DNA of 49,221 bases from an uncultured Anaerovibrio sp. Its GTDB lineage: Bacteria > Bacillota > Negativicutes > Selenomonadales > Selenomonadaceae. The position numbers and the translations under genes were made by a program. The notes below the pieces were generated by a model, which was not told the DNA's origin, did no database searches, and saw only the letters and a program-made list of their open reading frames with translations. The stretch covers positions 1 to 49,221 of the forward strand of contig CADACU010000008.1 in assembly GCA_902786545.1 (NCBI GenBank), read 5' to 3'. Shown piece after piece: positions 23,604 through 33,235 of the stretch. Position 1 is the stretch's first letter. Each line of letters starts with the position of its first letter.

Positions 23604-23792
23604 TTACATCACTTTATGAAAACCGCAGCCATCAAATGGGGCCCGATCGTTTGGTGTCGCCTGTGGGCAACGGCATTTGCCGGTTTCCTGCTCATATTCA
23701 ATCATTGTTTCATAGGTATCAATATAGTGATGCTCCCCACCCCAATAACGGCAACTTGCACAAACATTGGTATCCTTGGAAATTGTAGCCAT
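23604..23792 (-). CDS. Small Cys-rich protein, probable zinc-binding
   Basis: 62 residues, not recognised. It contains CASCRYWGGEHHY near the N-terminus and GKCRCPQATP...GCGFHKVM near the end, i.e. five cysteines plus histidines arranged as CxxC...CxC...CxxH, suggesting one structural zinc. AGGAGG lies 7 bases before this ATG; the longer frame seven codons upstream has no ribosome site. It follows the SPFH gene by 47 bases and closes the accessory cluster. A tiny AATCAT/ATGATT hairpin precedes its ribosome site. Confidence 0.72.
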   Translation of the reverse strand: MATISKDTNVCASCRYWGGEHHYIDTYETMIEYEQETGKCRCPQATPNDRAPFDGCGFHKVM

Positions 23793-23839
23793 ATAAATTC
23801 CTCCTAAAATCATTTCTTATGATTATATAGCAAATTCTA

Positions 23840-24943
23840 TCATTTTCCTTTACCACAGAATGGACAGAATTTGAACTCGTTATTAACCGGCCTGCCACAA
23901 CAAATGCAGAATGACACCTTATCTCCCGACGAAGAATCTGAGGCAGTTGCCGGAGATGCCTGCATAGACTGCTGCAACACACCGGTCATCTGTGGGGCCA
24001 TTACATTGCCTAGACTGGCCATCATACCAATGCCGATACCGGCGTTACTGAAGTCCCCTATCCCTTTATTGGCCGCCAGCTTTTCCATTATGTCAAACTG
24101 CCTTTCCTGCTGATAGGTATATCCTTCAATAACCCGTTTTTCCGCCAGTCCTTTGGCCTCAATCACCAGTTTTTGCGCTTCAGTGTCTTCCTGAATAAGT
24201 TCCAATTTCTGGTCTACCAGGGCATTATCCACCGCCACCCGTTGCCGCAGCATAAGATCCTTTATCTTATTATAACCTTCACAATTTTGTGGCCGGACAA
24301 AATTAGTGGCAGTCAAAAACATTAACTTGAAACCATAATCAGCAATTATAGGGCCCATATCCACCTGAAGGGCCGTGCTCATATTCTCTAGCTGGGTATC
24401 CATATTAAAAATACTGATCCCCGGCTGCTGCATATAATTGGCAATGTAGGCCTTCAGCTTGGACTGGCAAATATTCTTCAGCCAGCCAGTTATCCCCTTC
24501 GTAGAAAGCAATTCCTCGGTTCCAACTAAATGCTTCAGAATAAATCGTCCGTCATGGACCTTAATGCTCATAGTTCCACTAAGACCAATGTTCATAACCA
24601 CATTATAGGTCGGGTCAATATACTCCACCGCCTGGTTGGTTCCCCAGTTTACATTCAGCTGCTCGGTAAGGTTGACAAAATAAATCTCGCAGTGAAACGG
24701 GGTCTTATGATCAGCAAAGGGGATCTGCACCACCTCCCGCAACAGCGGGATATTTTTTGTATCCATAGTATAACGCCCCGGCCCAAAGGATTGCAGCATC
24801 CGACCATCCTTCATCAGTATCGCCTGCTGGGATTCATGCACCACCAGTTGGGACATAGTATTAAAATCTGCTTCCGGAAACTTGTATATCAGGGTACTAC
24901 TATCCCCTTCATAAGAAATGACATCCAAAAACACTCTGCTCAT
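23840..24943 (-). CDS. SPFH-domain protein with C-terminal zinc ribbon
   Basis: 367 residues of the SPFH/band-7-like group annotated in databases as 'virion core protein' homologues. The SPFH-like region spans about 25-255 (ESQQAILMKDGRMLQSFGPGRYTM, then KHLVGTEELLSTKGITGWL and MSTALQVDMGPIIADYGFKL). It is followed by a helical segment (about 215-280), a Gly/Ala/Met-rich stretch and a double-CxxC zinc ribbon (CICCGRP...CPFCGKGK). No membrane segment is seen. The usual role is oligomeric scaffolding at membranes; here function is unknown. AAAGGAG 8 bases before this ATG sets the start. It directly follows two small membrane-protein genes, plausible partners. Confidence 0.82.
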   Translation of the reverse strand: MSRVFLDVISYEGDSSTLIYKFPEADFNTMSQLVVHESQQAILMKDGRMLQSFGPGRYTMDTKNIPLLREVVQIPFADHKTPFHCEIYFVNLTEQLNVNWGTNQAVEYIDPTYNVVMNIGLSGTMSIKVHDGRFILKHLVGTEELLSTKGITGWLKNICQSKLKAYIANYMQQPGISIFNMDTQLENMSTALQVDMGPIIADYGFKLMFLTATNFVRPQNCEGYNKIKDLMLRQRVAVDNALVDQKLELIQEDTEAQKLVIEAKGLAEKRVIEGYTYQQERQFDIMEKLAANKGIGDFSNAGIGIGMMASLGNVMAPQMTGVLQQSMQASPATASDSSSGDKVSFCICCGRPVNNEFKFCPFCGKGK

Positions 24944-24957
24944 ATTTCCAACTCCTT

Positions 24958-25128
24958 TTACCAAGTAGCCAAGTAATCATCAATGATTTGGCAAACCAGC
25001 CACATAATAGCCAGCCATATAACGATGCTTACAGCCCATCCCAATTTTTCCAATCTTTTTTCGTCAAAATCATTGGTGACAAGCTTTATGGCATCGTATA
25101 AAGGGCGACATGATTTATACAATGTCAT
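24958..25128 (-). CDS. 56-residue single-span membrane protein
   Basis: An unlisted small gene found by reading the gap. It runs from ATG at 25126-25128 to TAA at 24958-24960 and begins MTLYKSCRPLYDAIK. A charged stretch (DFDEKRLEKLG) is followed by one transmembrane helix (about 31-48) and an acidic end. Its ATG overlaps the upstream gene's stop by one base (TAATG), and a GGGGGTGG stretch sits in ribosome-site position. Its stop lies within the ribosome site of the SPFH gene. The coupling on both sides argues for a real gene. No homologue is recognised. Confidence 0.66.
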   Translation of the reverse strand: MTLYKSCRPLYDAIKLVTNDFDEKRLEKLGWAVSIVIWLAIMWLVCQIIDDYLATW

Positions 25129-25685
25129 TATTTGCCACCCCCTTTTCCCGGGTCTTTACGCCAGCATTCCAGCTGCGTTCCCTTGTTTTGTGTTTCCATA
25201 AGGACAATGGAATCCTGAGTCCAGTTTAAATTTACCGTACCATAAAACCGCCTTTTCGGATGACTGCTTATTCTGACCTTGTAGGCACGGTAAATCTTGG
25301 TTTTCGGTTCGTACTTGTTATTTCTGGTCTCACCTAGATAGGTACCTACCACCGCCGTTACCTCATAAGTCCCCTTCCCCAAATAGACCGTCCGGTTCTG
25401 CAGAGCTTCCTTCTCAGACTCATCCTTATTTTCAATGATATATACCTCATAGTATTTAAGATCTCTTTCAGCAGAATATCCCAGCCCCTCCCAGTATTTC
25501 CTTTCCTGGGATGCTGCCATTTCATGGGCCTCATCAAAAGCCTTTTGCCGATAACAATCCTGCATATAATCCTTGGTAGTAGGCATGGAAAAGATCATTC
25601 CCACATGCTCCAGGCAGGTAAACAAAAATGGTATTACTATCACTAACATTATCAGGCACCCACAGCCGGAAGCCTCATTATTCAT
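25128..25685 (-). CDS. Unknown protein with N-terminal membrane anchor
   Basis: 185 residues, not recognised. Residues about 8-33 are hydrophobic and preceded by a small Cys/Gly-rich start (SGCGCLIMLV), giving an anchor or uncleaved signal. The remainder is hydrophilic with a Tyr/Lys-rich beta-type pattern (RTVYLGKGTYEVTAVVGTYLG...TKIYRAYKVRISSHPKRRFYGTVNL). The soluble part should face either the periplasm/exterior or the cytoplasm; orientation is unclear. It is coupled to the 56-residue membrane protein downstream and follows the zinc-ribbon gene by 28 bases. Confidence 0.72.
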   Translation of the reverse strand: MNNEASGCGCLIMLVIVIPFLFTCLEHVGMIFSMPTTKDYMQDCYRQKAFDEAHEMAASQERKYWEGLGYSAERDLKYYEVYIIENKDESEKEALQNRTVYLGKGTYEVTAVVGTYLGETRNNKYEPKTKIYRAYKVRISSHPKRRFYGTVNLNWTQDSIVLMETQNKGTQLECWRKDPGKGGGK

Positions 25686-25713
25686 AACCGTTCCCCCTCT
25701 CCCGGGCTGCTTT

Positions 25714-26142
25714 TCACAGTCTATTTAACCGATTTTTTATTCCAGCATAATGATTGTAAATATCTTCCGTGGTGCATTTTATGGCCGCAACCTGCGGTTC
25801 CAGGGCCGCAATTCTATCCTGCAAATCCTCTTTCCGACTTTGCCGCAAAAAGATAAACTCATATGGATAGTTAAGACAATCCAACTTATTTTTTAAATCC
25901 TGCAATACTTTAGAAAACTCATCATATTCCCTTTTCTTCTGTTCCCAAAGCATGTATAGCTCATTCTTTCTTATCTCCATAATTTTTTTGACCAGGGTCT
26001 TATCCGGTAACTCCCACAGGCTGATATGCCGGCCACAAGCATCACATTCAACCCCTTCCTGACGGATTATATCCTGGGTTATTTCAACAATATATCCACA
26101 ACTCTGACAATTAGTTGAGTAATGTATATTTGATATATCCAT
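25714..26142 (-). CDS. Zinc-ribbon and coiled-coil protein
   Basis: 142 residues, not recognised as a named family. An N-terminal zinc ribbon is clear (CQSCGY at about 13 and CDACGRH at about 33). A charged heptad-rich helix follows (about 55-95), interrupted by a Tyr/Phe-rich turn, then a second helix (SRKEDLQDRIAALEPQVAAIK). A Zn-nucleated coiled coil suggests a scaffold or nucleic-acid/protein adaptor. It lies 27 bases downstream of the sigma-like gene; GGGAGG precedes the ATG. Confidence 0.72.
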   Translation of the reverse strand: MDISNIHYSTNCQSCGYIVEITQDIIRQEGVECDACGRHISLWELPDKTLVKKIMEIRKNELYMLWEQKKREYDEFSKVLQDLKNKLDCLNYPYEFIFLRQSRKEDLQDRIAALEPQVAAIKCTTEDIYNHYAGIKNRLNRL

Positions 26143-26169
26143 AGTGGGAGCCTCCCTTTTCGTTAAATA

Positions 26170-26877
26170 CTAGGCTACCAGACATTCATAGGCATCCGTA
26201 AGCTTGGCCATGGCCCGATGATCCGATTTCAGCTTCATCATAGCCCGGGAATAGATACTATAAAACTGGTTTTTCGTTAAAGCACGGGCTTTTCTAATAA
26301 AAGGGCTTAAATCATACCGGGCAAGCATCGCTGTCGGGTTAAGATCCATTTTTATACAAATAACCGCCTGCTCCAATTGGCTCAATACAGCCAATGACTG
26401 ATAAAGGAATTCACTGCCCAAATTATGTGTTGGCGAAAACTTGGCTGAAGAAGCTATCATTGTCAGTTCATCTCCATCAAGGGATAAAATCTCATAAAAG
26501 CGGAAACGGTTTTCATTGCCAAAGCAGTAGCTTATCAAACTATTATGAATGGCTTTGTAAACAAAGGTAGAAAACCGTCTCCCCCGCTTAGGGCTGAACT
26601 TTTTGATACACTCATAAAACTTGATCAAACCAATCTGGAACAGTTCCTGCCTCAAACTATCATCCTGCCAAAAGTTTCTTACCTGATATCTGGAGTTAAA
26701 TTGGTAAATAACACTCCAGATTAAGGTTTCATTTTTAGATATAAAATAATTTAGAAGGTCTTCATCGTCGGCCAGTCTGGACAGCAATTCTTCATTACTG
26801 CAATCAGCCAGCTGTGAATGCGCCATACGAACATCATTGAAAATGCTATTAGCAGTCTTGTCAAAAACTTCTCCCAT
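26170..26877 (-). CDS. Sigma-70-like protein with region 2 and a diverged region 4
   Basis: 235 residues. Residues about 40-125 match sigma-70 region 2: FISKNETLIWSVIYQF, then ELFQIGLIKFYECIKKFSPKRGRRFSTFV and AIHNSLISY, the core-RNA-polymerase and -10 contacting helices. An insertion of about ten residues separates the first two helices. The C-terminus resembles region 4 only loosely: an LSQLEQAVICIKMDL start and an ending YSIYSRAMMKLKS, with a longer segment where the helix-turn-helix should be. It could be an alternative sigma factor, an RNA-polymerase-binding decoy or an anti-/co-sigma. The ATG at 26877 has AAAGGAG 9 bases upstream; the first ATG of the frame lacks one. It lies behind a strong, operator-covered promoter. 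Confidence 0.75.
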   Translation of the reverse strand: MGEVFDKTANSIFNDVRMAHSQLADCSNEELLSRLADDEDLLNYFISKNETLIWSVIYQFNSRYQVRNFWQDDSLRQELFQIGLIKFYECIKKFSPKRGRRFSTFVYKAIHNSLISYCFGNENRFRFYEILSLDGDELTMIASSAKFSPTHNLGSEFLYQSLAVLSQLEQAVICIKMDLNPTAMLARYDLSPFIRKARALTKNQFYSIYSRAMMKLKSDHRAMAKLTDAYECLVA

Positions 26878-26906
26878 ACGAGCCATCTCCTTTACCATTT
26901 TTTATC

Positions 26907-26959
26907 TTTGGTAATATTATACCAAAATTTTACCAAAAAGTCAATGGTAAAAAAATACC
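26907..26959 (-). promoter_or_regulatory. Promoter with dyad operator for the sigma-like operon
   Basis: On the minus strand -35 TTGACT (26939-26944) and -10 TATAAT (26916-26921) are 17 bases apart, a near-consensus promoter. The -10 box is the centre of a dyad, TTTGGTA-N6-TACCAAA (26908-26927), with core GGTA-N6-TACC at 26910-26923. A second core, GGTA-N6-TACC, lies at 26946-26959 just upstream of the -35 box, and an extra half-site TTTGGTA lies in the spacer. A repressor bound here would block RNA polymerase directly. The same core sits on the -10 box of the XRE gene promoter at 29355-29383. Confidence 0.7.
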
Positions 26960-26989
26960 CCACAACATCACCCGGATGTTATGGGGTAT
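26949..26989 (-). terminator. Intrinsic terminator after the TRD-protein gene
   Basis: On the minus strand a 15-bp stem (ATACCCCATAACATC with GATGTTGTGGGGTAT, one G-U pair) encloses a 5-base loop and is followed by seven T residues. It lies 22 bases beyond the stop of the gene at 27012 and separates the two halves of the accessory cluster, so the sigma-like operon depends on its own promoter. Confidence 0.88.
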
Positions 26990-27011
26990 CAGAAAGGCTG
27001 TTATTCTGTAA

Positions 27012-28946
27012 TTATATTTTCAAAATTTCATCCGCCGATTTTATGTAACCATCAATCAGCTGCTTTGCGGCCTGAATTTGGTGCCACTTGTCCGTAACTT
27101 CCTTTATGATGGTTTCATCCGTCGGAAATTTCAGGGTCAACATTTTTTTCATAGTCAAAAGGTTAATCTCCCATCCGTCAGTAAGACTGTTTAATTGACG
27201 CTTGCCTGCCTTGCTCCGCAGGTACATATACATAAATCGGGTATTCATGATCAGTGACTGGTTTTCCATTATTTCCGGTGTGCAACGGATAATATGCAGC
27301 GAGTCGGCTGCCACCAGCACCCGGCCAGCTATATCCGCCTCGGTGACCAACGCCACATCAGCCGCCCCAATCCGGGATACCAGCAAGTCGCCGGGCTGCA
27401 AGATATACCGCTGTATTTTTTCCATCTTTGTCGGGCCAACCCATATGCTGTCCAAGGATTCATCACCCGCCAGCAGTTCACCCTTTTTTATATGCTTGGC
27501 CGCTACAATATACACCAGTGTCTTGTTCTCCTGGGAACCTTCCTGCCCCATTCCGGTCAGACTCTTCTTAACAATCCCCAACTGGCCCATGGACACCGGC
27601 CGGAACACTGACATCATATCCGGGGCAACTATCCCGTCTTTCACCAGCTTATCCGCTATTGGCGCTTTTCCCACCAGCTGCTCCAGGGAAACATATTTAC
27701 CCTCCTGCTGCAACCGCTCCAGATACAGGACACTATTGCAATAATACGGATCATAGGCATTGGCCTGCCTCAAAAAGAACTCCTTATCCACCCAGGCAGC
27801 ATTTTCTCCATCCGCCTGAAACCGCTTTTTAATAGTGGTTTCCAGTGCCATCAGCCGTTGTTCATCAGCCAATGCTCTGTATTCCTTCCCCGTCAGCAAA
27901 TCTGACAGGTCAACTACCTTCACCTTGTCATTGCTGCTTTGCCGGGAAAAGACCACACATCTGAGTTCCACCAGCCGTTGACCTTCCGTCTTATCCCTGG
28001 TGTGCTCCGTTCCCGGAATGTTAAAAATACACTTAATCTGCCCCTTGGCCATATACTCATCAATAAGAGGCTGAACTATCTTATTGTCAGTCCAACTGCC
28101 ATCCAGGATAAGGGCCACTTCTCCGGTATCACCTATTTTTTCCAGGTGCTTCCCCACCAAAGCGTCAAACCATTCAGCTATCTTTTTTTCCAGCTTCAGC
28201 CGACGATAATGACCGTTATAATCCGGGAACACGGCCAAAGAGGCCGTTTCGCCCCCGGCCGTTAATTCCTCTGGATGAATATCCAGCGCCTCCAGCACCA
28301 GCAAGGACTGGGCCAGGCTATCGCCCGCCTCATTTTCCACCATGCTGGCCGGCTCTGGAACATCCATATAGTAAAACCGTTTTCCAGCCCACTCCGGCTC
28401 ACTGAGTGTCTCCAGCATAGCCAACAGGCAGTCCAGTGACATAGCATTCACATTTAACGGCAAGCCGTTGACCGTCGCCAAGGCGGCCTTCACCGTACAA
28501 TCCACCAGCCGGTTGCGGAAACACACCATAGTCGAGCAGCTCAGCCGGAAGTTGTGGATAAGCACGCTTTCCTGCTCCCGCCGCCACCGGCTGTACCACA
28601 GCATAATGGTGATCAAGTCATTTACCGACAGTCGATTGGCAATTTTTTGTATATTTTTGTCATTACACCACTCCAGCTCACTGTAGCCGGCCAAAAAATT
28701 ATCCATTTCGGCCATGGGATATTTGGCAGCCAACTCCGCCTTCAGTTTTTCCCAGCTCCCATACCGCCTGTGAAGCAGCACAATTGCGGCCAGAACCCGG
28801 TAGTTATACTTCTCCTGCTCGTCATATATGGAAAACTCCAAAGCATCATCATTGGTAAGCTTGATAAAGAGCTCACGCCACCCCCTTTTGTCCTTGGACC
28901 GCCCCTGTGAGGCCAGCTCCTGAAAATCTTCATAATCGATAATCAT
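27012..28946 (-). CDS. Degenerate N6-methylase-like protein with HsdS-like recognition domain
   Basis: 644 residues. Residues about 1-200 are not recognised. About 255-350 read like the back half of a type I HsdM-like N6-adenine methylase core (KIGDTGEVALILDGSW, then IKCIFNIPG and LRCVVFSR...DKVKVVDLSDLL). The upstream SAM motif (DPxxGSG) and the catalytic NPPY/F are absent; the matching place reads FPDYNG (240-245). Residues about 420-640 resemble a single HsdS target recognition domain, with LQPGDLLVSRIG (516-527), AGRVLVAADSLHIIRC and a C-terminal helix. So it probably binds DNA without methylating it. AGGAG-like GGGGAG precedes the ATG. It is in one operon with the XRE gene upstream. Confidence 0.7.
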   Translation of the reverse strand: MIIDYEDFQELASQGRSKDKRGWRELFIKLTNDDALEFSIYDEQEKYNYRVLAAIVLLHRRYGSWEKLKAELAAKYPMAEMDNFLAGYSELEWCNDKNIQKIANRLSVNDLITIMLWYSRWRREQESVLIHNFRLSCSTMVCFRNRLVDCTVKAALATVNGLPLNVNAMSLDCLLAMLETLSEPEWAGKRFYYMDVPEPASMVENEAGDSLAQSLLVLEALDIHPEELTAGGETASLAVFPDYNGHYRRLKLEKKIAEWFDALVGKHLEKIGDTGEVALILDGSWTDNKIVQPLIDEYMAKGQIKCIFNIPGTEHTRDKTEGQRLVELRCVVFSRQSSNDKVKVVDLSDLLTGKEYRALADEQRLMALETTIKKRFQADGENAAWVDKEFFLRQANAYDPYYCNSVLYLERLQQEGKYVSLEQLVGKAPIADKLVKDGIVAPDMMSVFRPVSMGQLGIVKKSLTGMGQEGSQENKTLVYIVAAKHIKKGELLAGDESLDSIWVGPTKMEKIQRYILQPGDLLVSRIGAADVALVTEADIAGRVLVAADSLHIIRCTPEIMENQSLIMNTRFMYMYLRSKAGKRQLNSLTDGWEINLLTMKKMLTLKFPTDETIIKEVTDKWHQIQAAKQLIDGYIKSADEILKI

Positions 28947-29003
28947 ATATATCTCTCCCCGTCAACTACATAGCTGCAATCATTCATATGATATTGATAG
29001 CTT

Positions 29004-29294
29004 TTACTGCAAATCCATAATATGAACGCAAAAATCTTCGTCAAAAGCCTTATTGCCATCCTTTTTATATACATACAAATCCTTTAAATCACACCTGAGC
29101 AGATAGCAAAGGGCCAGCAGGTGGGCGGTCTTTGGATATGCTTCCCCACGGATATATTTATAGATGGTCTGGGGAGACACCTTTAAGTGCAGGGCCAAAT
29201 CATTTACCGAATATCCATGGTCCCGCATCAGCTCACCCAGACGGTATCCGCTGGCCACCGCATCAATTTCCGGGATATAAACCATTTTATACAT
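29004..29294 (-). CDS. XRE/Cro-type HTH transcriptional regulator
   Basis: About 96 residues with a helix-turn-helix (YSVNDLALHLKVSPQTIYKYIRG, about 27-49) followed by a third and fourth helix (KTAHLLALCYLLRCDLKDLYVY) typical of Cro/C1-type regulators, and an acidic C-terminus. The longest frame begins at a GTG four codons upstream; GGTGG 8 bases before this ATG sets the start. It is the first gene behind a promoter whose -10 box carries the GGTW-N6-TACC dyad, so autoregulation is likely, and the same dyad controls the sigma-like operon 2.4 kb away. Confidence 0.86.
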   Translation of the reverse strand: MYKMVYIPEIDAVASGYRLGELMRDHGYSVNDLALHLKVSPQTIYKYIRGEAYPKTAHLLALCYLLRCDLKDLYVYKKDGNKAFDEDFCVHIMDLQ

Positions 29295-29343
29295 AAGCCA
29301 CACCACCTTCAGTCTGTATGTATTATCATTTAACCCATAAAAA

Positions 29344-29383
29344 TTTTTGGTTATATTTTACCACAAAATCCATAAAATGTAAA
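29344..29383 (-). promoter_or_regulatory. Promoter with dyad operator for the XRE operon
   Basis: On the minus strand -35 TTTACA (29378-29383) and -10 TAAAAT (29355-29360) are exactly 17 bases apart. The -10 box lies within GGTAAAATATAACCAAA (core 29349-29362), which differs at only two of 17 positions from the operator over the -10 box of the sigma-like operon (GGTATAATATTACCAAA). Position and orientation relative to the promoter are the same in both. It lies between the PcfJ-like gene and the XRE gene. Confidence 0.68.
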
Positions 29384-29398
29384 TCCCATATCCACTCC

Positions 29399-31036
29399 CT
29401 AATGCCCCCTCATGCAGTATGTACCCAGCTTTAACTTGTGTCTTACGGCCCATTCCAGCACCGCTGTTGTGGCATCCTTATCCAACCTGCGGTTGCATGG
29501 GCCGGAAGCCTGCATTATCATCTTGTCCCTGACTTCAAGACAGGCTCTGGCTTTTCCCTGTTGTACAAGATAGTAGATTGTGCACATTTTATTATTCATC
29601 ATTTCAGTATAACTGAACACACAATTATGAAATAATGCACCTACCTCCTTCAATTCCGCCCCGGAGTGAGCGATACGAAAGGTTCCATCCTTCGTTTCTT
29701 CTACCCGGCTCAGCTCCGTCTTAGTAAGTTCAAACTCAATGCTCATCATTCGACGGCAATGTGCTTCATAATCGAAGGTCCTTTGCACAACACGATTAAC
29801 AGGCTGAGGCTGGGGCGGAAAAGCTATATCATGGGTTTCCCGTGTGAAGCCGTATCGGTGGATAGCCTGAACGAAGTTCTCCTGAAGCATTTCATTCATA
29901 TAATTGTTTTTCCACTTATTCAATGTATCCCGTACCATAGGGTCCATATCGACTATCACCTGATAAATTATTTCCCCAGCCCGCTTGGTTCCCCAGCGTT
30001 CTGAAAGCCAGTTTACCAGCAGATGCCACTCTTCAAAAAAAGATTCCCGCTCAATGTTATACAGCAAATGGTTCCAAGTATCCCCCCACCAGACATGATC
30101 GTATCTATGTCCACTTTTAATGTACAATTCACCATATTTATCCAATCCCAACCGGCCAATATCCACCCCCATTATTTCCGTCAAACTGTAAAACTGCTGC
30201 CAGGCATTAACATCCCTTAGCCCAACCCGGGTAAGGAAATAACACAGAAGCAATACCCGTCCATTGCTATGATAGGCCTTTTTAAGGCTCTTAGCACTGG
30301 GCAGATTCAGATAATCACAGACCAGTTCAAAATTACTGTCATTATTACGATGAACCTTCCGCTTAAAATCATACCCAAAAAGGTCAACATACCATCCTAC
30401 ATTAACATCCAGGGGAAACTGGACAAAGTACCTCAGCAGGCGATTCACGGGAATATTCTTTGGCACCGTTGGTACAAAACCGAACTCCGCCCTGGCCAGT
30501 TTTTTCAGAAAATCCATAACCCTGTTGCCAATATTCTCCGGCAGACGGGGATAGGCAGTATAAGAATAGTTATACGAGCCAATATCATCCACCCAATCCC
30601 ATTTGTTGGAATAACTATTGCCTCTGTACAAAACCGAAACCTCATCAGTTGGTACCGCCGTATATTTCCATTGACCATAATCAAGCCGTAAAGATAACTG
30701 CCTGTAAGACCTTCGTATAATCACTCCTTCATCCAAGACATAAACATCAGCAATGATAATGGCTGTCTGCTGCTTTTCAAAAAGCTGAACCCGCCACCGG
30801 GCCACGGCATATTTGGAATATTTCCGTACTTGGTAGTAAGGTTTTTTTGATTTGTTTCCTGAATAGGCGAAAAGAGTGTGCTCTTTACTTTCCGTCAGTA
30901 ACCGGTCTATATCATCCTGATTACTGTCAGCAAATACCGGCTCTACGGGTATTTTTTCAATGTCATCCTTCACCCACTCCGCCTGGGACTCCTGCCAGGT
31001 GCCGGTTTCACAGTCATATATATAGTAAAGCTGCAT
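29399..31036 (-). CDS. PcfJ-like protein
   Basis: 545 residues. The C-terminal part (about 440-545) carries the PcfJ family pattern: GALFHNCVFSY, a beta stretch IYYLVQQGKARACLEVR, then IMQASGPCNRR and a final VLEWAVRH helix. The N-terminal 430 residues, rich in Tyr/Trp/Arg, are typical of long PcfJ-like proteins but have no assigned domain. PcfJ was named on enterococcal conjugative plasmids; chromosomal copies are common in Firmicutes and their biochemistry is unknown. The conserved His-Asn-Cys and Gln-Gly-Asn suggest a catalytic site (inference). GAGG 8 bases before the ATG sets the start. It lies 15 bases behind the AAA+ gene. Confidence 0.78.
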   Translation of the reverse strand: MQLYYIYDCETGTWQESQAEWVKDDIEKIPVEPVFADSNQDDIDRLLTESKEHTLFAYSGNKSKKPYYQVRKYSKYAVARWRVQLFEKQQTAIIIADVYVLDEGVIIRRSYRQLSLRLDYGQWKYTAVPTDEVSVLYRGNSYSNKWDWVDDIGSYNYSYTAYPRLPENIGNRVMDFLKKLARAEFGFVPTVPKNIPVNRLLRYFVQFPLDVNVGWYVDLFGYDFKRKVHRNNDSNFELVCDYLNLPSAKSLKKAYHSNGRVLLLCYFLTRVGLRDVNAWQQFYSLTEIMGVDIGRLGLDKYGELYIKSGHRYDHVWWGDTWNHLLYNIERESFFEEWHLLVNWLSERWGTKRAGEIIYQVIVDMDPMVRDTLNKWKNNYMNEMLQENFVQAIHRYGFTRETHDIAFPPQPQPVNRVVQRTFDYEAHCRRMMSIEFELTKTELSRVEETKDGTFRIAHSGAELKEVGALFHNCVFSYTEMMNNKMCTIYYLVQQGKARACLEVRDKMIMQASGPCNRRLDKDATTAVLEWAVRHKLKLGTYCMRGH

Positions 31037-31051
31037 TTGTCCCACCTCATT

Positions 31052-33235
31052 TCAGGCAATAAAACCTATACTTAACCGGTCCTGTTTTTTATACCGTTCC
31101 ACAGCATTTACATCAAAATCTTCCATCTCAAGTTGACGCAGTTCTTTGTCTGTAATTGACTCCTTATTGCGATTATGTGCTGTCAAAAGGCGTCTGGCCT
31201 GATGAAGAATGGCCTGTTCCAATAAATTCCTGGCAAAACGGCCATTGCCAAACTCCTCGTTGGTACATGCTTGTACAAAAATTTCATGACACCGCTGAAT
31301 TGCCTTGCCACTAATTACATAGTTCTGCTTGGAAGCCATCAATTTGATAATTTCCGTCATCTCATCTGCATTATAATCAGGAAAATCAATATGAAAGCCA
31401 ATACGGCTGCGAAGGCCTTCATTAACCTGAAGGAGCTTCTCCATTGGCTGCTTGTAGCCGGCCAAAATCACAATAACTTTATTTCGCATATTTTCCATTT
31501 CCTGCACTATGGTAGCAATGGCCTCATCACCATATAGTCCCCGGCGGTCATCCACCAGGGAGTAGGCTTCATCAATAAACAGCACTCCCCCTTCGGCCTT
31601 TTCAAAAAGCTTGCGCACCTTATCTGCTGTATGGCCCACATATTTTGCTATAATATCCCCCCGTCCACATTCCAGCAGACGCGGATTGGTAGTAACACGC
31701 CTATCATACAAAATTTTAGCTAAAAGCCTGGCCACAGTGGTTTTGGCACTACCCGGATTACCGGTAAAAAGGATATGGTGGGATCCCCGGTTGGTAGTGA
31801 AGCCCCTGGCTTCTTTCAGTATTCTAAGCTCCTGTCCCATAAGAATATCATCAACCAATGCTTTAGCCCTTTCCAACCCTATCATTTCCTGCAATTCAAC
31901 ATATGGGTCGTTGTCCATTTCATTGTGCTTTTTTATCTTCAACTCACTTTTAGACATTATTTCCTTATAGCAGATGAAGGCTTTATTTTTCATTACATTG
32001 TCATTCCAACACTCAAAAGCATTATATATTTCTGAACAGGTAATCTGATTTCCCACAGGCAATACTTTTTCAAATTCAGCATCATCCATGTACTGAGGGA
32101 AATCACTGGTAGCGGCCAATTCTTTTAAATACTCTTTTGCAGTGGCCCGATTGGCATATCCTTCAGAGAGCTTAACAATATTCATTCTTTCTCTATCATC
32201 TGATAAATCATCCTCTATAATTGTCTCTTCAAATTTGTGTTTATAAAATATAAACATTACATTCTTGAAGCTTTCCATGATTTTTTCATTTATATGCTCA
32301 CTGACAGTATCTTCAAAATACCTCAATAATGTACCGTTAATATCCCTTATGTCCCGCTCCAGTACGATAACGCCACCATAAAAACCATTCGTTATATGAT
32401 GAACTATATCTACATCTTCCGAGGACATTCTTCTGCACTTTGGACTAAGTCGAAGATGGGCAATCTCATCCGTCAAAAGGCGTTTTTGGTTATATAAGGC
32501 TGCCACCAGCAAATCAATATATTGCTCAGCCACCTGCTGATTTTCCACTGTAATTTGATAATGTACTGGGATACCACAGAATTTCTGTGGATTTGACTCA
32601 TCATAAATCCTATCAATTTCAGCCATAAAGCTGTCATCCACTGCCAGCCTGGCAGCACGCTTTAAGGCAGCGTCTTTATTGTCTATCTTCAGGCCACACT
32701 TGCGTATATTCCACTCAACAGCTACTCCTGTACGATTCCTAAATCTGTTACCAACTACAATTTCAAGACCATAATCCTTCACCCTTCTGTACCCATCACT
32801 TAGAAAGTCATCCTCATGGCCACCAAAAATTCTATTACCGGTTTCCTGCCAGGTAATTCTTTTTATAGTATTTTCCATTACTTCAATAATGTGATTTTTC
32901 CATTCCCCGGCATCATTTTTCCCGTCATAAGAAATCTGCAGTTCTTTCCATATCCACTCAGTCTCCTTATCCAAAATTTCCTTCATGTTGACTACATCAG
33001 TGCGTTGTTTAAATGCAACAATCATATCCAAAGTACCTGGATCCTGCGACCCCAAACATATAATGTCATAACCATGTTTATCATGCCGCATGATATTATT
33101 CAGCTTTTGTATACACTTTCTTCTTTCGTATTTATCATTTTTATCAATATCTTCAAAAAAAGTATATTTTTCCGGATTATTATCTTCAATTGCCACAGAT
33201 GGCCGAAATCTTGCCTTGAAATAGATGTAAATCAT
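31052..33235 (-). CDS. AAA+ ATPase, CbbX/SpoVK-like, with long unassigned N-terminus
   Basis: 727 residues. The C-terminal AAA+ module (about 443-700) is of the CbbX/SpoVK type: conserved IGLERAKALVDDI, Walker A GNPGSAKT (492-499, Ala in place of the usual last Gly), KYVGHTADKVRKLFEKA, Walker B GGVLFIDEAYSL (about 549-560), sensor ILAGY and GLRSRIGF arginine region. The N-terminal 440 residues have no domain I can name; a part (about 280-345) with VIVLERDI and MFIFYKHK has an ATPase-like rhythm but no Walker A. It is expected to remodel a protein or nucleic-acid partner. First gene of the cluster, coupled to the PcfJ-like gene. ATG is preceded by GGGGGG. Confidence 0.84.
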   Translation of the reverse strand: MIYIYFKARFRPSVAIEDNNPEKYTFFEDIDKNDKYERRKCIQKLNNIMRHDKHGYDIICLGSQDPGTLDMIVAFKQRTDVVNMKEILDKETEWIWKELQISYDGKNDAGEWKNHIIEVMENTIKRITWQETGNRIFGGHEDDFLSDGYRRVKDYGLEIVVGNRFRNRTGVAVEWNIRKCGLKIDNKDAALKRAARLAVDDSFMAEIDRIYDESNPQKFCGIPVHYQITVENQQVAEQYIDLLVAALYNQKRLLTDEIAHLRLSPKCRRMSSEDVDIVHHITNGFYGGVIVLERDIRDINGTLLRYFEDTVSEHINEKIMESFKNVMFIFYKHKFEETIIEDDLSDDRERMNIVKLSEGYANRATAKEYLKELAATSDFPQYMDDAEFEKVLPVGNQITCSEIYNAFECWNDNVMKNKAFICYKEIMSKSELKIKKHNEMDNDPYVELQEMIGLERAKALVDDILMGQELRILKEARGFTTNRGSHHILFTGNPGSAKTTVARLLAKILYDRRVTTNPRLLECGRGDIIAKYVGHTADKVRKLFEKAEGGVLFIDEAYSLVDDRRGLYGDEAIATIVQEMENMRNKVIVILAGYKQPMEKLLQVNEGLRSRIGFHIDFPDYNADEMTEIIKLMASKQNYVISGKAIQRCHEIFVQACTNEEFGNGRFARNLLEQAILHQARRLLTAHNRNKESITDKELRQLEMEDFDVNAVERYKKQDRLSIGFIA

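Follow-up and report, generated by a model that had tools for sequence, protein, structure and literature searches.

The window analysed here, a stretch of 49,221 nucleotides, is the entire contig C8 (CADACU010000008.1) of the 105-contig genome (G000) of an uncultured Anaerovibrio sp., a rumen bacterium. An original prediction, made from the letters alone, had proposed that ten minus-strand genes at 23604-33235 form one regulated multi-component system. All ten open reading frames (ORFs) are present at these coordinates in the order AAA, PcfJ, XRE, TRD (target-recognition domain), SIG, ZR142 (ZR), M185, M56, SPFH and CYS, with gaps of 6, 92, 57, 113, 27, 28, -1, -7 and 26 bases, and the cluster is bordered by the divergent thiN gene, as predicted (match above the NCBIfam cut-off), and by a FIST-GGDEF gene at the other end. 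On comparison with related genomes, the ten genes resolve into three pieces: an AAA/PcfJ pair, a seven-gene block from XRE to SPFH, and CYS as a flank. We tentatively favour, at slightly less than an even chance, a reading of 23840-29306 as one regulon in which XRE would control a restriction-derived DNA reader, a sigma factor and a phage-shock-protein (PSP)-like membrane module. The function of this regulon is probably related to defence or envelope stress.

The separate standing of the block is apparent from Anaerovibrio sp. RM50 (contig NZ_JHWV01000011, 115,778 bases; G021). Reading from thiN, RM50 carries AAA, PcfJ, a 910-aa protein with a Cas4-like nuclease domain at its end, an AddA/RecB-like helicase, XRE-TRD-SIG-ZR-M185-M56-SPFH, and then sbcD and sbcC. 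The SbcD match exceeds the TIGR00619 cut-off, those to AddA, SbcC and Cas4 are below curated cut-offs, and the helicase gene is apparently split by the border between two of our stretches (L009 and L010). The seven-gene block is separable because in RM50 it sits elsewhere, between the helicase gene and sbcD and two genes away from AAA-PcfJ, with order and orientation preserved. A scatter in relatives, without any pair regularly side by side, is not what is seen: the seven remain linked. CYS behaves differently: the RM50 stretch L009 has no CYS homologue, and in G063 a homologue with 83% identity adjoins thiN, followed as in the window by a gene (98%) that we take to be ilvE, while the other nine genes were not found in the 20 kb around thiN. 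The DNA match between G063 and the window is confined to 205 bases over CYS, with unlike left flanks, and CYS was dropped as a member of the system. In G081 a 69-aa ORF beside thiN retains the start of AAA, its DNA being 80% identical to RM50 over 282 bases (AAA start plus intergenic region). From RM50, G063 and G081 it therefore follows that an AAA gene next to thiN is a shared feature which has at times disappeared, that the block is a separate unit, and that CYS belongs to the flank.

Nine of the ten genes have RM50 orthologues, with 84% identity for SPFH and 39-69% for the other eight (for example, 55% for AAA and, by tblastn, 61% for M56 and 51% for ZR). Across these nine, the proportion of nonsynonymous differences (pN) is 0.09-0.40 against 0.67-0.93 for synonymous differences (pS), which puts synonymous change close to saturation; for the five genes that allowed its calculation, dN/dS is 0.16-0.25. 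By this measure all seven block genes are under purifying selection, which largely refutes the idea that the locus is a restriction-modification island in decay, next to which unrelated genes happen to lie. Such an island would fit a TRD protein without its catalytic motif, and the orphan specificity-like genes and AAA remnant at thiN in related species, but the same order in two species and a conserved operator (see below) speak against decay, and we consider it extremely unlikely.

The sole minus-strand terminator-like site listed within the block, at 26990-26954, has a counterpart in RM50, where a similar hairpin with a T-run is seen by eye at the equivalent place. The predicted terminator is thus present, but it lies between TRD and SIG, and the promoter-like sites suggest three transcription units instead of the two expected: AAA-PcfJ, XRE-TRD, and SIG to SPFH/CYS. 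Over the region, neither terminator-like sites (7, versus 8.8 in shuffles) nor promoter-like sites (32, versus 26.0 with a standard deviation of 5.1) are above the shuffled level; single sites therefore count only via position and conservation. The two promoters that flank the terminator carry the same palindrome, TGGTAWAATATWACCA, over the -10 element, and in the window and RM50 alike both -10 elements lie inside TGGTA-N6-(T/A)ACCA. A pattern built from the two window sites alone found, at up to one mismatch, two sites in 35 kb of RM50, which are exactly the two cognate promoters; 60 first-order shuffles gave a mean of 0.0 and a maximum of 0, and when the two upstream regions were shuffled, none of 1000 trials gave a match in both. 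Scanning the whole G000 and G021 assemblies with a four-site pattern returned four exact matches, all in these promoters, and three one-mismatch sites in each assembly (backwards-read controls totalled 1 and 3); because this pattern was derived from those very sites, the scan shows specificity, not discovery.

Since the window-derived pattern finds exactly the two cognate RM50 promoters, XRE, whose relatives were sought within the fetched stretches, is probably a shared repressor that binds both operators, a role suggested also by its position and family. XRE-TRD and SIG-to-SPFH are, as read from the DNA, adjacent units with predicted sigma-A-like promoters and a common palindrome in two species, and their shared regulation as a putative regulon is well supported by sequence. 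The proposal of a regulated multi-component system is upheld in this form, with seven genes together in two species and two promoters sharing one operator in both.

TRD is probably a DNA-binding, non-methylating protein. Its residues 204-609, the part for which homology is shown, align with three N6_Mtase+Methylase_S fusions from G053, G114 and G016 (hhalign 96.7%, E 3.4e-10; the G053 and G016 fusions were Pfam-scanned), and its recognition domain aligns with a pair of proteins from G014 and G074 (hhalign E 9.1e-9). Similarity to type I specificity subunits is weak (PADLOC Specificity_I, E 4.8e-7), and Pfam gives TRD no match. The catalytic motif [NDS]PP[YFWH], which both of two HsdM controls contain, occurs in none of the proteins from the window, RM50, G074 and G014; the three fusions beside type I loci likewise lack it, two of them keeping the glycine-rich motif I. 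In TRD motif I is missing as well, which is weak evidence because in one of the two HsdM controls the only match to the pattern lies away from the motif-I place; of the two absences, that of [NDS]PP[YFWH] is the stronger indication. No HsdR or HsdM partner occurs among the ten window proteins (Pfam, PADLOC). Full-length TRD relatives are present in 2/121 family genomes (any match, 5/121) and 2/398 phylum genomes (any match, 6/398), and a genome scan returned one locus, RM50, own records possibly being excluded. Scans of viral contigs and plasmids found no relative of TRD or of M185 (0 in each), and a PDB sequence search with the TRD profile (E up to 1) returned nothing. We also observed type I restriction loci in three stretches (L184, L185 and L187) with an extra methylase-specificity fusion gene lacking the NPPF/Y motif; some of the hsd genes there are presumed, having been named by eye.

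Among the ten proteins, Pfam matches above cut-off were obtained for AAA (AAA and AAA_lid_6), PcfJ, XRE (HTH_26 among other HTH models), SIG (Sigma70_r2, matched by both SIG members) and SPFH (Band_7_1); M56 had no match, and ZR142, M185 and CYS had weak matches only, all below cut-off. The C-terminus of SIG looks region-4-like by eye only, with no Pfam match to region 4. In ZR142 four cysteines are invariant in four aligned sequences, as are four C-terminal cysteines of SPFH in four sequences, its zinc-ribbon Pfam matches being below cut-off. SPFH reaches a maximum 19-residue hydropathy of 1.09, indicating no membrane anchor of its own, and M185 (2.58 at residue 7) and M56 (2.30) have one strongly hydrophobic segment each. 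The true start of SPFH may be the ATG at about 24943, and CYS may be read through from SPFH. PDB sequence searches with the M185 profile (E up to 1) and the SPFH profile (E up to 0.01) found nothing. An assignment of M185 as an S-AdoMet lyase was rejected (E 0.0021, below cut-off, one of four members). The predicted membership of the system is also supported: a protein that binds DNA and probably does not methylate it, a sigma-like one and a scaffold at the membrane.

The membrane part of the block recurs in other genera. M185 and M56 have relatives in three genera, and the SPFH-M185-M56-ZR module occurs in four genomes of three genera. The M185 profile matches 8/189 family genomes, four of them at E <1e-80, which are the four that built the profile; in the phylum it is found in 2/398 genomes, both Anaerovibrio. 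In the two other genera (G074 and G042) the arrangement is M56-SPFH-TM132-ZR-M185 followed by a calcineurin-type phosphatase (Pfam-tested in G074, BLAST-matched in G042). In G074 the module is preceded by a 364-aa pseudo-methylase-TRD protein (Methylase_S just below the Pfam cut-off; PADLOC E 1.9e-12), and downstream of it follow the phosphatase, two genes without PADLOC match, DrmA (E 1e-202) and DrmB (1.3e-83); DrmA lies about 3.5 kb and JetA, JetB and JetC about 14 kb from M185. The gene-neighbourhood comparison proposed with the prediction thus gives one positive case, with module and TRD gene together near defence genes, and that case is a single genome. At another locus, in G014, sbcD, an SbcC-like gene, addB and addA have a TRD-like gene of 551 aa as neighbour, which parallels the surroundings in RM50, and a relative (27%) of the gene that precedes TRD in G074 is also present there. 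SPFH by itself is commoner, with any match in 104/379 class genomes, many of these covering only the zinc ribbon or a short SPFH piece, and matches at E <1e-100 in 5/379, G570 included. Stretches L146-L150, L182 and L183 held no further complete module. No paper among the matches listed describes this gene combination, a weak negative because the search covered open-access literature only.

As a working model of the regulon, XRE would repress both promoters until a signal lifts the repression, for instance phage infection, foreign DNA, or damage to the DNA or the envelope. The TRD protein then made would bind, but not methylate, a particular DNA sequence and act as a DNA sensor or regulator, and SIG would redirect RNA polymerase to another target set. 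M185 and M56 would anchor the soluble SPFH/zinc-ribbon scaffold in a YdjGHI-like manner, and the scaffold might stabilise the membrane or arrest the cell. A bolder version, which we regard as fairly unlikely, is a DNA-sensing PSP-like defence: the restriction-derived, non-methylating TRD would sense invading DNA by its sequence and, via the shared repressor and dedicated sigma factor, summon the membrane scaffold to protect or arrest the cell. If the regulon model is right, restriction-modification and SPFH/PSP membrane-stress scaffolds, fields that are mostly treated apart, would be joined by one circuit with one repressor, two operators and one sigma factor, and pseudo-methylase-TRD proteins, which here also occur beside type I loci, would gain a plausible role as DNA readers. 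It would likewise offer a route to explaining SPFH/zinc-ribbon genes on phage-like contigs, on a plasmid and near defence genes.

Several of the same observations could be read without any link to phage or foreign DNA. The block could be an ordinary PSP/YdjGHI envelope-stress cassette in which XRE and TRD are mere transcription regulators and SIG amplifies the response. Its layout is like that of ydjGHI, no other protein of the block is as conserved as SPFH (84% identity versus 39-69% for the other six), and the Bacillus subtilis operon is itself under an alternative sigma factor, according to the published account (PMC8581546). A pure housekeeping stress response would, however, not be expected to have defence genes near the module, as in G074, or a TRD of restriction origin; full-length TRD is rare (2/121 family genomes), and Pfam finds no pspA among the ten genes. 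We judge this cassette somewhat unlikely.

SPFH genes were also seen on mobile DNA. In four viral contigs (L200-L203) they have a membrane-like and/or zinc-ribbon neighbour, with phage-like genes or recombinases nearby (by eye), and one of these contigs (L200) carries SbcD/SbcC-like genes (by eye) a few kb upstream. The Butyrivibrio plasmid pNP21 has SPFH with two hypothetical genes, near an annotated recombinase and also a specificity-subunit gene. These contexts, together with a PcfJ family that is common in phages and an ORF of 169 aa that resembles a transposase by eye and lies some 7.6 kb past the RM50 block, would suit a mobile or prophage-derived cargo module that benefits the element and not the host. 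Yet profile searches of L200-L203 at E up to 1 gave no convincing match for M185, M56 or TRD (best E 0.04, 0.0032 and 0.11), Pfam finds no integrase among the ten proteins, and the immediate neighbours in RM50 are repair-type genes, which makes a cargo module quite improbable.

A number of observations weigh against the regulon reading that we prefer. A strict 7+7 palindrome scan recovered the SIG site of RM50 and not its XRE site, and it gave four other two-mismatch sites with other spacings in the window. Full-length relatives of SIG are restricted to two Anaerovibrio genomes (2/121; any match, 9/121). The defence-gene context of the membrane module comes from one genome, G074, and the G042 module has no recognised TRD gene beside it. 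M185-like genes that lack the module are present in G082, G025 and G560, and SPFH occurs without M185 or M56 beside it in G570. No PADLOC 2.0.0 model names the cassette, the ten proteins giving partial single-protein matches only (IetA, RmrA, Specificity_I and a few others), and Pfam relates M185 and M56 to neither the YdjH (TPM) nor the YdjG family. An AlphaFold2 (AF2) model of TRD from a two-row alignment had a pLDDT of 38 and was used for no fold claim. Positions of all features are given in Table 1.

Table 1. Genes and putative regulatory sites of the cluster, in minus-strand order (positions in the window)
Feature	Position	Strand	Description
AAA	31052..33235	-	727 aa; neighbouring unit A, outside the XRE regulon
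PcfJ	29399..31045	-	548 aa, C-terminal PcfJ domain; neighbouring unit A
XRE-TRD promoter-like site	29355..29383	-	TTTACA-17-TAAAAT, extended -10; hexamers identical in RM50
Operator 1, TGGTAAAATATAACCA	29348..29363	-	Putative; covers the -10 of the XRE-TRD promoter
XRE	29004..29306	-	100-aa Cro/C1-type regulator; HTH_26 E 3.2e-13; 68% identity in RM50
TRD	27012..28946	-	644 aa; pseudo-methylase part joined to a type I specificity (target-recognition) domain
Intrinsic-terminator-like hairpin, TRD/SIG gap	26954..26990	-	16 pairs
SIG promoter-like site	26916..26944	-	TTGACT-17-TATAAT, extended -10; 11/12 matches; similar in RM50
Operator 2, TGGTATAATATTACCA	26909..26924	-	Putative; covers the -10 of the SIG promoter
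SIG	26170..26898	-	242-aa sigma-70-family protein; Sigma70_r2 E 1.4e-9, above cut-off
ZR142 (ZR)	25714..26142	-	N-terminal four-Cys zinc-ribbon-like segment, then helical-looking region
M185	25128..25685	-	One N-terminal hydrophobic (transmembrane-like) segment and a conserved domain
M56	24958..25128	-	Small protein, one hydrophobic segment
SPFH	23840..24964	-	Band_7_1 E 3.9e-32; C-terminal zinc-ribbon-like segment; YdjI-like architecture
CYS	23604..23813	-	69-aa Cys-rich protein; flanking gene

The AAA and PcfJ genes probably form an independent accessory pair. AAA has an N-terminal part of about 440 residues without family and a C-terminal SpoVK/CbbX/EccA-type AAA+ domain (Walker A GNPGSAKT at 492, Walker B at 551; NCBIfam matches to SpoVK, EccA and CbbX below cut-off), and PcfJ matches PF14284 above cut-off and carries the motifs HNCVFSY and QASGPCN. 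PcfJ lies within 5 kb of AAA at six of the 41 near-full-length AAA loci (query match starting no later than 190 and ending no earlier than 690), namely in the window, RM50, G050, G043, G120 and G016, where rough gene-density arithmetic would predict well under one. Larger stretches were read for 15 AAA loci of other genomes, some picked for PcfJ proximity; WYL regulators were confirmed in all six tested neighbours, and none adjoins the window pair. The expectation of a single ten-gene system is not supported. All ten genes are adjacent in the window and the RM50 pair is only two genes off the block, but AAA-PcfJ is also found where the block is missing and stands apart from it in RM50, the palindrome scan found no operator site upstream of AAA, and CYS is separable. 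One calcineurin-type phosphatase family is common to AAA-PcfJ loci (L076, L077) and SPFH-module loci (G074, G042) at 41-60% identity, which may hint that the pair and the block are functional neighbours after all; a single ten-gene system nevertheless seems to us very improbable.

A tblastn search of phage records found no PcfJ, although a viral fold library classes it as a phage family, and a PDB sequence search returned only two lipid-A-disaccharide synthase sequences (E 0.61). In an AF2 model (mean pLDDT 86), residues 440-540, the PcfJ domain, take the shape of the first half of a GNAT acetyltransferase fold. GNAT enzymes carry a Q/RxxGxG/A motif, and the conserved IVQAxGxxN of PcfJ sits at its place. 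By title we take 45 of the 50 listed PDB Foldseek matches to be GNAT-fold proteins (three peptide synthases counted among them); no Foldseek match reaches E 0.001, and there is no sequence-level GNAT match.

Paralogues of both genes were noted elsewhere. In this genome an AAA paralogue lies on contig C12 (G000:C12, stretch L011) among FtsZ-like genes (by eye), with a fragment of a second AAA copy. A PcfJ paralogue with 40-44% identity to that of the window stands beside a thiD-like gene (by eye) in four Anaerovibrio stretches (among L072, L074, L080, L082 and L084); in this genome (L072) it is one gene away from it. At thiN itself, four other Anaerovibrio genomes (L119, L122, L123 and L125) have a gene of 326-352 aa between thiN and an alaS-like gene. 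These genes look alike by eye, a single Methylase_S domain is present in the copy from L119, and no hsdM or hsdR was noticed nearby, by eye only and without a family scan. The thiN region of G081 additionally carries a DUF4143 ATPase.

Among known defence systems, MADS (the methylation-associated defence system) has weak likenesses to TRD (MAD5, E 4.4e-6, far below cut-off), XRE (MAD1, 0.019 and 0.004) and AAA (mad8, 1.4e-4), but these look like generic matches of HTH, AAA and specificity domains, and other MADS components are unmatched among the matches listed. DISARM and Wadjet come in through the related SPFH module of G074, which lies near DrmA/DrmB and JetABC, whereas the window cluster itself matches no such protein in PADLOC. 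The closest restriction counterpart of TRD is the type I system, as the protein shares homology with the N6_Mtase+Methylase_S fusions that adjoin type I loci in G053, G114 and G016 (Pfam assigns hsdM in G053 and G016, and Pfam/PADLOC hsdR in G053; the rest are by eye); unlike a type I system, TRD lacks the catalytic motif and has neither HsdM nor HsdR among the ten proteins.

Restriction controller proteins provide a further precedent for repressor-controlled restriction. The published account of RptR describes a small DNA-binding repressor that controls restriction genes via short promoter sites, with the minimal site TAGCTA in three direct repeats (PMC12255303). Unlike the RptR islands as described there, the putative operator of the window also covers a promoter-like site that would drive a sigma factor and membrane proteins.

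The membrane half of the block is best compared with the pspA-ydjGHI operon of B. subtilis. In the published work on this operon, it is sigma-W-dependent, YdjI is a soluble SPFH protein with a C-terminal zinc finger, and YdjI and PspA depend on two membrane proteins, YdjG and YdjH, to form foci at the membrane (PMC8581546). Comparative work has linked PspA, band-7 and zinc-ribbon proteins to membrane-complex assembly (PMC11237479). No PspA match was found among the ten proteins by Pfam. Like this operon, the window module would combine a soluble SPFH protein bearing a C-terminal zinc finger or ribbon with co-encoded membrane proteins and a link to an alternative sigma factor; it resembles the YdjGHI set in layout, which is a likeness and not a demonstrated identity. 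Unlike pspA-ydjGHI, the block has a sigma-factor gene of its own together with an XRE/pseudo-methylase unit.

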